DNA from: Candidatus Izemoplasma sp.
GTDB lineage: Bacteria > Bacillota_I > Bacilli_A > Izemoplasmatales > Izemoplasmataceae
Assembly: GCA_036172455.1 (NCBI GenBank)
Contig: JAXKVY010000002.1
Coordinates: 310,001-374,000 of the forward strand
DNA length: 64,000 nt
Direction: 5' to 3'
Shown: positions 25,584 to 28,218 of the stretch, piece by piece
Position numbering within the stretch: the first letter of the stretch is position 1
Layout: the number at the start of each line of letters is the position of its first letter
Notes under the pieces: generated by a model
What the model saw: only the letters and a program-made list of their open reading frames with translations
Databases searched by the model: none
What the model was told of the DNA's origin: nothing
Translations under genes and position numbers: made by a program

Positions 25584-25607
25584 AAAGATGGCGTTTTAGC
25601 CATCTTT
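25584..25607 (-). terminator. Terminator of the cobalamin-uptake operon
   Basis: Perfect stem AAAGATGGC/GCCATCTTT, 6-base loop, directly after the S-component gene. Confidence 0.88.
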
Positions 25608-25611
25608 CATA

Positions 25612-26130
25612 TTATTTTACATGTACTGGATAGGGTGAGTTAAATGAGATTCTTAACACTTTAACCAGTGGCTCATACCCCCACAATACAGTTAAAAATC
25701 CTGTGGTTGCCATAATTATTTCATAGGGCAGATCAGCGAGTAGATATGGCCAAAATTGATTTATACCTGTTTGCAACATGTGAAATGGAATGAACATCCA
25801 TCCATAAACAAAGCCAAAAGCAAATGCTAGAATCGCTTTCAAGTATAGATTATCACTATCTTTAAACAATGCATGATAAATATAGGCAATCATTAGCCAG
25901 TTTATCATCAATGGCACCATATAGAATAGATTAAATCCTCCCATATATAAACTATCAATGAGAACATACCCAATGATATATATAGTCATTTCTTTGAGCG
26001 AGAAAACACTGGCAAACACAAATACTAATAAGACGGTAAATTGAATGTTTGGTAAAAAAACAAGTACTTGTTCCTGCGTAAAGGTAATCGCAATCGCAAA
26101 TGCTATCATTAACAATTGTCGTGTTTGCAT
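25612..26130 (-). CDS. ECF transporter S component, probably cobalamin-specific
   Basis: 172 residues with about six transmembrane segments, the size and topology of an ECF substrate-binding S component (IAFAIAITFTQEQVLVFLPNIQFTVLLVFVF at the N terminus; YVLIDSLYMGGFNLFYMVPLMINWLMIAYIY in the middle). Substrate is inferred from the cobalamin riboswitch upstream and from two transcobalamin-like partners in the same operon. The start overlaps the previous stop in TGATG. The ATPase and T subunits are not in this window and are presumably shared. Cobalt or another corrinoid is possible. Confidence 0.75.
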   Translation of the reverse strand: MQTRQLLMIAFAIAITFTQEQVLVFLPNIQFTVLLVFVFASVFSLKEMTIYIIGYVLIDSLYMGGFNLFYMVPLMINWLMIAYIYHALFKDSDNLYLKAILAFAFGFVYGWMFIPFHMLQTGINQFWPYLLADLPYEIIMATTGFLTVLWGYEPLVKVLRISFNSPYPVHVK

Positions 26131-26552
26131 CAGTCATCAGCTCCAATCATAATTTCTTCAAAGGTAATGGTGTCGCCATCTTTTAATGCGATGCCATCGA
26201 CTCCGACATTACTATATGTGTCATTAATATAGATACCAATATAATGGTTTCGCCAATCTGTGATAACCTCATCAACGCCGAGTACTATCCGACCATTAGC
26301 AAAGTGTGTTTCACACCGTGTGGTTGGTTTGTATGATGTATTTGCACAAACAACGGTATAATGTTCTTGCAGCAAACTCACTAGGTCGTCTTCTTCAGTA
26401 AATGATAAGGTATCATCAATAACAACCGTATCGTTGCGATCAATGAGCACAAATTGAATCTCACCTAGGTCATCATTTTCTAAACGAGTGAGCATAAATA
26501 CAGCAATCACTGTCACAATAACAACGGCTATTGATAGTATAACTTTTTTCAT
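26130..26552 (-). CDS. Membrane-anchored DUF4430 (transcobalamin beta-domain-like) protein
   Basis: 140 residues: an N-terminal membrane anchor without a lipobox Cys (KKVILSIAVVIVTVIAVFML), then one domain with the DUF4430 pattern: a beta strand start IQFVLIDRNDTVVIDDTLSF, DLVSLLQEHY, ITDWRNHYIGIYINDTYSNVGVDGIALKDGDTITFEE. DUF4430 resembles the beta domain of mammalian transcobalamin/intrinsic factor, which covers bound B12. ATG at 26552 has AGGAGG 6 bases upstream. Two Cys (CANTSYKPTTRC) could form a disulfide outside the cell. It likely works with the lipoprotein encoded just upstream. Confidence 0.75.
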   Translation of the reverse strand: MKKVILSIAVVIVTVIAVFMLTRLENDDLGEIQFVLIDRNDTVVIDDTLSFTEEDDLVSLLQEHYTVVCANTSYKPTTRCETHFANGRIVLGVDEVITDWRNHYIGIYINDTYSNVGVDGIALKDGDTITFEEIMIGADD

Positions 26553-26567
26553 ACTCACCCTCCTAAT

Positions 26568-27905
26568 TTATTCTGCATCAAATGGATGAACCGCAGTTCC
26601 TTCATTTGATATTTTTTGGTACATAACAAGCGCTAAGAAAGCTTGTGGTGTACTAAATAATAAATCTTCATTAGTATCGTCTGTTAATACCCAATCAAAA
26701 CTTCCTGTGTCAGTTTGAAATAATAATAAGGCATCAATCAAGGTATTATCATTTGTCGTATATTCTGCGCTTCTTGGGTTAACTCCATTAGCCATCATAC
26801 CCATAAGCACTTGAGAAATACTTGCAGCATTTAGGGTGGATCCCCATCCCATATCACGCGTCATGATACCACCATTATCCAGTTGATCTGTTTTAACCCA
26901 ATTTAGATAATCATTAATTAATGTATCAACACCTGTTTCATCTGTATATTTAGATAATGCCATCAAATCGACACCACCTGTGTCTAATCCGGCATCATAT
27001 GGGGTATTATTGGTAAAATAGCTTAGTGCATTCGACTCAAAGGTTGTAAAATCAACATCTGTATCAACACTATTTAACGCCATTAATGTATATGCGGTCT
27101 GTCCATATGGCCCAGTTTGTGCAATATTAGCCAAATCACTAATATAGGTCGTTGCATCGTTGTTCGAAGCATTTAACAGTGCAATGGCTTTAAAATAGTC
27201 ACTATACGTCTCCAATGTTAAGCCTTCAACATACGTTTCAATGGCTTCATTCGTTGTGTACTCTTCTAGGATACCTAAAAGGTTTAATGCTGAAACAACA
27301 TGATAATTGTAAGTTGTTTCATTGACATAATCATTGACATGGTTGATTAAGAATAATTGAATAGCGTCATCTACCTGTTGCTCAAAGGCATCCCAATATT
27401 CAACAGTAAAGCCAAAAACATCCCCGTTTTCAAAACTAGTTGCTTCAACGCCAGTCATGGACATTTCACCATTTTTATAAAAAGCAATGTAAGCGCCATT
27501 AAGTGGTGTTAAATGTTCAAAAGATGTGATCATTTTACCATAGTCAGTATCGTCAGCATCAATCGAAAACTCCGTTTCTAAGAGTTCAAATAAATTTCCC
27601 TCGTAATCATCATTGTACCCAACTGATGTACTACGGTAATCACCATAGTAATCTTCATATGTGACTGTAATAATGTTGTCATAAATTTGAGATTGTAACG
27701 CGGCAATTTGTGCCTCTAAATTATCAATCTCAGATTCATATTCAGCAATAAGATTATCCTTATCACCTAAGTTGTCCTGTAGTGTTTCTACTTCTTGTTG
27801 CAAGGTTTCAATTTCACTTAGTTTTTCATTAAGCTCTGTATTATTACATGCTGTTAATGAAAAAATTAGCATTATCATTAAAACCATAGAGAATAGTTTT
27901 TTCAT
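26568..27905 (-). CDS. Transcobalamin-like lipoprotein: coiled coil, DUF4430, alpha/alpha barrel
   Basis: 445 residues. A lipoprotein signal ends at LTAC (Cys20). Residues 24-74 are a predicted coiled coil (heptads such as EIETLQQEVETLQDNLGDKD). Residues 78-168 match a DUF4430 domain (ITVTYEDYYG, NLFELLETEF, YIAFYKNGEMSMTGVEATSFENGDVFGF). Residues 175-440 show repeated helical pairs with motifs like NGGIMTRDMGWGSTLNAASISQVLMGMMANGVNP and DALLLFQTDTGSFDW, as in the prenyltransferase/terpenoid-cyclase toroid. Mammalian B12 carriers combine the same two folds in the opposite order. First gene of the riboswitch operon; it probably captures cobalamin at the surface and hands it to the S component. 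Confidence 0.8.
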   Translation of the reverse strand: MKKLFSMVLMIMLIFSLTACNNTELNEKLSEIETLQQEVETLQDNLGDKDNLIAEYESEIDNLEAQIAALQSQIYDNIITVTYEDYYGDYRSTSVGYNDDYEGNLFELLETEFSIDADDTDYGKMITSFEHLTPLNGAYIAFYKNGEMSMTGVEATSFENGDVFGFTVEYWDAFEQQVDDAIQLFLINHVNDYVNETTYNYHVVSALNLLGILEEYTTNEAIETYVEGLTLETYSDYFKAIALLNASNNDATTYISDLANIAQTGPYGQTAYTLMALNSVDTDVDFTTFESNALSYFTNNTPYDAGLDTGGVDLMALSKYTDETGVDTLINDYLNWVKTDQLDNGGIMTRDMGWGSTLNAASISQVLMGMMANGVNPRSAEYTTNDNTLIDALLLFQTDTGSFDWVLTDDTNEDLLFSTPQAFLALVMYQKISNEGTAVHPFDAE

Positions 27906-27940
27906 TGTGTCCTCCTTTTTAGTATTTTGTAAAATAAAAA

Positions 27941-27960
27941 AACCATCCTCCTGGATGATT
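27941..27960 (-). terminator. Riboswitch expression-platform terminator
   Basis: CATCC/GGATG stem followed on the minus strand by GTTTTTTTA, between the aptamer and the lipoprotein start. CCAGGA in this hairpin is complementary to TCCTGG near 28004-28012, a plausible antiterminator pairing. Confidence 0.8.
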
Positions 27961-27997
27961 TACCGTTTTTATAAAATACCTTAAAAACGACATACTC

Positions 27998-28180
27998 ATT
28001 ACCCAGGAGTATTTGTGTTTCTCAGATCCTAGGTAGGTCTACCGGCTGATGTTCATCCTACTATGCGTCCTTCCCGCTAAAAAGCAGTGGACAAGCGCAT
28101 TTCGTCCGAATCACGGTTGCTGGGACAGCTTGAGATTTTCACTCAATTCCCTGTTATGTCTTGTTAAAAGACACCTAACA
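27998..28180 (-). promoter_or_regulatory. Cobalamin riboswitch
   Basis: The minus-strand RNA contains the ordered class I cobalamin aptamer elements: AGGTG near 28178, GGGAAT...GTGAAAATC, then GCTGTCCCAGCAACCGTGA (28111-28129), GGGAAGGACGCA, GATGAACATC, and AGCCGGTAGACCTACC (close to the consensus GYCxGGAGACCUGCC). It is expected to stop transcription when adenosyl- or other cobalamin is abundant. It controls the three-gene uptake operon. Confidence 0.92.
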
Positions 28181-28189
28181 TCTAGTTTT

Positions 28190-28218
28190 ATTGTATGATA
28201 TGAATACGGTCATGTCAA
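28190..28218 (-). promoter_or_regulatory. Promoter of the cobalamin operon
   Basis: TTGACA, 17-base spacer, TACAAT on the minus strand, about 10 bases upstream of the riboswitch. Confidence 0.85.

Follow-up and report, generated by a model that had tools for sequence, protein, structure and literature searches.

Animal cobalamin carriers (transcobalamin, intrinsic factor and haptocorrin) join an alpha/alpha toroid (PF01122) to a C-terminal beta domain of the SLBB type, and bacterial counterparts have been predicted: Burroughs et al. (2007; PMC1796856) proposed that proteins combining an SLBB domain with a toroid, in either order, act as B12 scavengers, described a further SLBB gene of the operon as well as CbiO/CbiQ-like partners, and suggested transfer to animals. 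Here we analyse an operon of this kind in a stretch of 64,000 nucleotides from Candidatus Izemoplasma sp. (assembly GCA_036172455.1, contig JAXKVY010000002.1, positions 310,001 to 374,000 of the forward strand; hereafter the window). The unit occupies 28218-25584 of the minus strand and comprises a promoter, a cobalamin riboswitch, a terminator and three abutting genes, which encode a transcobalamin-like lipoprotein, a membrane-anchored SLBB protein and an S component of the energy-coupling factor (ECF) type. With a probability of roughly 0.82, we read it as a B12-repressed device for corrinoid capture and ECF import in a wall-less marine bacterium unable to make B12.

Akin to the transcobalamin-clade SLBB proteins (PF14478) of Burroughs et al., the operon has a predicted secreted fusion of SLBB domain and toroid and a second, paralogous SLBB gene, and the hosts of the earlier systems likewise usually lack B12 synthesis and carry ECF-type genes (CbiO/CbiQ-like) nearby. 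As opposed to those systems, the operon includes neither an ATPase nor CbiQ, and its dedicated S component would be served by a distant EcfAA'T; it is preceded by a cobalamin riboswitch (the term 'riboswitch' is absent from PMC1796856); and it belongs to a presumably wall-less host, with a coiled-coil stalk on the lipoprotein and with split and adenosyltransferase-linked versions among relatives. Both halves of the animal carriers are matched, but the domain order is reversed, the protein is a membrane lipoprotein, the PF01122 cut-off is unmet, and the profile alignment puts Ala305 opposite His173, the cobalamin-binding histidine of transcobalamin. ECF-CbrT of L. delbrueckii (Santos et al., 2018; PMC5997447), for which a crystal structure is published, resembles the present system in pairing an S component with a shared ECF module in a B12-related context without BtuCDF; the S component described here, however, has no detectable similarity to solved S components and shares its operon with two extracellular SLBB proteins. 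BtuM (PMC6072759) is likewise a small B12-related membrane uptake protein, but holds cobalt through a cysteine, whereas the 172-residue protein is cysteine-free. BtuH-type surface proteins of Bacteroidetes (PMC8941943) are extra B12-binding proteins in a B12 transport system, as is predicted here, although they belong to Gram-negative gut commensals, to other transport systems and to a different protein class.

The first-pass annotation of this DNA, made from the sequence alone, had pointed to the reversed domain order. Both orders, as well as the second SLBB protein of the operon, are already in PMC1796856, and because such scavengers were predicted there, our finding is an independent recovery of an earlier idea. 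New with respect to Burroughs et al. are the riboswitch with a conserved expression platform, the dedicated S component in place of a local ECF set, the pairing of the anchored SLBB protein with that S component, the split and adenosyltransferase-linked variants, and the near-universality of the system in wall-less Izemoplasma-type bacteria. The open-access library that we searched yielded no experimental work on a bacterial toroid-SLBB protein, and nothing relevant on cobalamin in Izemoplasma.

The operon and its riboswitch

A sigma-70-type promoter, TTGACA-N17-TACAAT, lies at 28218-28190 (minus strand, as are the other parts of the operon); it matches the consensus at 11 of 12 positions and ranks top among 20 promoter-like sites of the 64-kb stretch, which bears out the original call. 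The covariance model RF00174 matches at 28193-28015 over its full length (model positions 1-189) with 97.0 bits (cut-off 31.5; E 5.8e-23), close to the interval 27998-28180 at which the aptamer had first been placed. No second cobalamin riboswitch occurs in the host genome (1.69 Mb searched; 99% complete).

The expression platform consists of an antiterminator arm, CTCCTGG (28003-28009), and an intrinsic terminator with a T run (27940-27961), whose CCAGGAG (27954-27948) is the pairing partner of that arm. The pairing is complete, 7/7 with G-U allowed, in all 28 family leaders, and the terminator-side variants found among them (CCAGGAG, CCGGGAG, CCAGGGG, CTGGGGG and TTGGGAG) all preserve it. 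Moreover, the CTGGG within the antiterminator arm is complementary to CCCAG in aptamer loop L5; CCCAG is present in 41/42 aptamers and CTGGG in 39/42 of the stretches downstream. In cobalamin riboswitches, bound ligand fixes the L5-L13 kissing loop. Since this loop holds the CTGGG of the antiterminator arm, B12 is expected to release the terminator and halt transcription, and we infer that the operon is switched off by B12. In a cell short of B12, CTCCTGG would pair with CCAGGAG, the terminator would be blocked and the three genes transcribed; with B12 bound, CTGGG would be captured in the kissing loop, the terminator would fold and expression would cease.

Open reading frames of 445, 140 and 172 codons follow in the order originally described for a single transcript: the lipoprotein gene (26568-27905), the gene for the anchored SLBB protein (26130-26552) and that for the S component (25612-26130). 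A hairpin search, which gave it on the plus strand, placed the operon-end terminator at 25584-25607; read on the minus strand, it runs into CTTTTTAG.

The lipoprotein combines a beta domain with a toroid

The lipobox cysteine, Cys20, is invariant among 29 homologues. An AlphaFold2 model of the 445-residue protein built from 38 sequences (predicted local-distance difference test, pLDDT, 90.8; predicted template-modelling score 0.83) shows a signal helix, a helix or coiled coil at residues 22-74 (27684-27842, from DSSP of the model), a beta domain at residues 77-170 (27396-27677) and then an all-helical toroid, which starts at residue 171-173 and ends near residue 440-445 (26571-27395 for residues 171-445). 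All three parts named in the first-pass annotation, coiled coil, DUF4430 and toroid, are therefore in the model. Several relatives lack the stalk, which makes it optional. Two tandem DUF4430 domains precede the toroid in the lipoproteins of loci L022 and L025 and of other relatives.

The beta domain has a beta-grasp fold with a hairpin after the helix (helix 105-112, strands 115-120 and 123-129 in the model). DUF4430 (PF14478) scores 21.1 bits in the window's protein, under the cut-off of 23.8, and is matched at E<=0.01 in 25 of the 29 homologues (best E 4e-14). Foldseek matches the beta domain to 3u7z, a DUF4430 protein (1.4e-5), and to the human transcobalamin beta domain (5no0 and 5np4, 1.5e-4); intrinsic factor and transcobalamin match over 250-320 columns (1.5e-3 to 6e-3), the toroid included. 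Searching the PDB with the 445- or the 172-residue protein as a single sequence yielded little, and profiles were required. The beta-only profile found 3u7z (1.7e-7), transcobalamin-1 (0.074) and transcobalamin-2 (1.1), with no other match, and the toroid-only profile ranked intrinsic factor in the top two places among 177,635 PDB sequences (E 0.036 and 0.043; squalene-hopene cyclase, 0.57). A profile of the whole lipoprotein aligned transcobalamin-2 in permuted order, in keeping with a model in which the beta domain precedes the toroid; the reversal relative to the animal carriers, as first noted, is thus seen in both. Kinship with B12 carriers is argued because two separately searched domains both rank the same small carrier family at or near the top. 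The models and profiles tie the beta domain to transcobalamin, and the toroid more weakly to intrinsic factor. Asp308, invariant in 38/38 sequences, aligns with Asp176 in the SVDT motif of transcobalamin; Asn359 and Thr419-Pro420-Gln421 are likewise conserved, and PF01122 matched one homologue at E 0.0005-0.0015.

The anchored SLBB protein and the S component

The 140-residue protein consists of one transmembrane helix followed by a beta domain, in which DUF4430 scores 26.3 bits, over the cut-off of 23.8. It is paralogous to the beta domain of the lipoprotein (hhalign 99.5%, E 3e-23), so that the second, membrane-anchored beta domain of the earlier reading stands; compared with solved transcobalamins it showed no direct sequence similarity, the link running through this paralogy only. 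According to PMC1796856, transcobalamin faces its ligand with the hairpin that follows the helix, and this hairpin carries a longer loop here. Two cysteines lie in this loop in 24 of 30 homologues, neither in five and a single one in one; the pair (Cys69/Cys80 in the window's protein) is retained or lost jointly in 29/30, a disulfide or a cobalt contact being candidate roles.

The 172-residue protein has no meaningful Pfam or NCBIfam family match. Its model (pLDDT 90.3) shows six transmembrane helices, and its 18 top-ranked fold matches in the PDB comprise nothing but ECF S components (best E 0.012, with TM-scores reaching 0.73-0.76), in agreement with the initial assignment to that class. The further description of the protein as 'CbrT-like' did not hold beyond the fold: CbrT is not among the nearest structures, which are S components of the folate/biotin type and others, and profile searches retrieved no solved relative. 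An AxxxA-like motif is recognizable in the first transmembrane helix, where residues 10 and 14 are both A, G, S or T in 32/35 sequences (strict AxxxA in 13/35). The host genome encodes one EcfT, beside two ATPase genes and away from the operon.

The module among relatives

A homologue of the lipoprotein is found in 45/49 genomes of the family and in 20/20 of the good ones. Of 29 homologous loci, 28 have the riboswitch ahead of the lipoprotein gene, far more than chance would give, and the remaining one is truncated by a contig end; the order lipoprotein, beta protein, S component is kept wherever the flanking DNA suffices, with a gap of -4 to 61 nucleotides between the first two genes and mostly an overlap between the second and third. 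The same three genes and riboswitch recur in other families of the class, several times with other neighbours. Co-occurrence, named at the outset as a check, therefore extends across the family and beyond it, and because the block recurs among other neighbours in other families, it is a functional unit and not merely inherited synteny.

A dUTPase-family gene (PF00692; 28276-28719 of the window) adjoins the promoter on the upstream side, and this gene and rpsB, downstream, flank the operon in many family genomes.

In locus L115 (1801-3444; relative G011), a second riboswitch is followed by a PduO-like adenosyltransferase, a DUF4430 protein and an S component, with no toroid, about 2 kb upstream of a standard module; in L116 (6084-8724; relative G046), a riboswitch, a PduO-like gene, a coiled-coil lipoprotein, a DUF4430 protein and an S component stand together, again with no toroid lipoprotein. 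The beta protein and the S component form a pair kept together in every variant seen. As this pair persists even without a toroid, the toroid-less modules favour a role of the anchored SLBB protein beside the S component. A toroid lipoprotein paralogue with neither a cobalamin riboswitch nor a DUF4430 or S-component neighbour occurs in L119 (4062-5438; G102).

In a split variant (L118, L120 and L121), the toroid forms a separate lipoprotein without a beta domain of its own and is followed by the beta protein and the S component; in L120 (5283-10580; G140), the riboswitch, toroid lipoprotein, DUF4430 protein and S component are continued in a row by genes for a B12-dependent glutamate mutase (B12-binding subunit, MutL and MutE-type). 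This arrangement raises the idea that a single corrinoid is handled by both beta domains, with the anchored SLBB domain replacing or completing the beta half of the clamp and the lipoprotein alone being only part of the carrier. The isolated human transcobalamin beta domain has been solved with cyanocobalamin bound (5np4), which fits such a division of labour; in the window and its family, though, the lipoprotein has its own beta domain. We regard this sub-model, which is compatible with corrinoid capture and import as set out above, as doubtful.

B12 requirement and envelope of the host

PF02310 proteins are found in 45/49 family genomes and number five in the host, whose B12 users include lysine/ornithine aminomutase-type and glutamate mutase-type genes, a small B12-binding protein and a B12-binding radical SAM protein; a PduO-type adenosyltransferase is also encoded. 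CbiD is found in 0/49 family genomes, the host included, and CobS is missing from 47/49, the host among them. A possible BtuC, the sole FecCD match in the host, was rejected as an ABC-3 family permease. With no tested synthesis marker seen, the host is predicted to be unable to make B12, and no route of uptake through BtuC is seen.

These absences bear on what is carried. The same machinery might take up incomplete or other corrinoids, such as cobinamide and non-benzimidazole cobamides: CbrT also carries cobinamide (PMC5997447), Burroughs et al. (PMC1796856) wrote of 'B12 or its precursors', and no sequence feature fixes a preference for the lower ligand. The host, however, has no CobS to finish a precursor, and cobinamide alone would for that reason give no usable coenzyme unless another route exists; we consider such a ligand unlikely.

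The absences also bear on whether cobalt or some other metal is the cargo of the S component, with the surface proteins storing or sensing B12. Cobalamin riboswitches do stand before cobalt transporters in B12 makers, and 3u7z, the nearest solved DUF4430 structure, carries the title 'putative metal binding protein'. Against this, the host lacks any corrin-synthesis marker (CbiD 0/49 and CobS 2/49 in the family), and the model of the 172-residue protein has a vitamin-type S-component fold. Metal import appears extremely improbable, the least probable of the alternatives that we weighed.

A SEDS peptidoglycan polymerase is found in 0/49 family genomes, and the cultured Izemoplasma relative, strain zrk13, lacks a distinct cell wall (PMC8397711). 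The cells should accordingly be wall-less rather than having the Gram-positive surface first assumed, and because they should have no wall, the lipoprotein would sit on a bare membrane.

Weighing the evidence

Taken together, the riboswitch, the predicted folds, the profiles and the gene links support the riboswitch-controlled corrinoid-capture operon that was first proposed, in which ligand binding is a prediction. Several observations weigh against this reading. The gene order within the family may in part be plain inheritance. None of the E-values with which the profiles find the human carriers in the PDB (0.04-1) is significant by itself, and PF01122 reaches its cut-off in 0/392 genomes of the phylum and is hence unusable as a phylum-wide marker. 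The profile of the S component finds no PDB sequence at E<=10, solved S components included; the cysteine of the BtuM type is missing; and the substrate of the S component is unreadable from its sequence, its corrinoid specificity being drawn from context. Four small genomes of genus g9 (G021-G024) keep the module without a PF02310 protein or PduO; the lipoprotein gene is retained, and G023/G024-type loci have the riboswitch too. A QueG-like reductase, requiring cobalamin but no adenosylation, may be the B12 user, and the sole B12 enzyme, in g9, where QueG is indicated by PF08331/PF13484 only; TIGR00276 matches in these genomes fell under the curated cut-off and were discarded.

Lastly, the Foldseek matches of the toroid to terpene cyclases (squalene-hopene cyclase and MstE) and to GH105 are as good as, or better than, those to the B12 carriers, and for this reason the toroid fold alone cannot name the family. 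If the toroid were terpene-cyclase-like, the lipoprotein could bind another large ligand (haem, another tetrapyrrole or a polyprenyl compound) and be merely co-regulated with B12 status. Squalene-hopene cyclase and MstE score as high as or above transcobalamin, three toroids match PF00432 weakly, and a haem-specific ECF transporter exists (PMC7299338). Yet intrinsic factor ranks first in the PDB for the toroid profile, the toroid is fused to an SLBB domain, and every module examined has the riboswitch, with links to glutamate mutase and adenosyltransferase genes. A ligand other than a corrinoid is in our view very unlikely.

On the corrinoid reading, the lipoprotein would stand on the naked membrane by its coiled-coil stalk, and a corrinoid would be clamped between toroid and SLBB domain as in transcobalamin and intrinsic factor, the fold coming from the model. 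The anchored SLBB protein would lie next to the S component and, as the tight pairing of the two genes suggests, take part in hand-over or closure. The S component, energised by the single EcfAA'T of the cell encoded elsewhere, would then import the corrinoid, and inside the cell the PduO-type adenosyltransferase would serve the lysine/ornithine aminomutase-type and glutamate mutase-type enzymes.

On the current view, S components acquire their vitamin unaided. A more specific version of the scheme is an ECF importer with dedicated extracellular delivery, in which the lipoprotein catches the corrinoid and the anchored SLBB protein, with the cysteine pair in its ligand-side hairpin, receives it and then docks onto the S component, so that loading would be by a protein partner instead of from solution. 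We put this forward tentatively, holding the relay step by itself to be somewhat less probable than its absence. With two predicted extracellular binding partners for a single S component, this conserved operon makes the question of a delivered substrate directly testable, and two families without database names, the toroid and the S component, gain a likely function.

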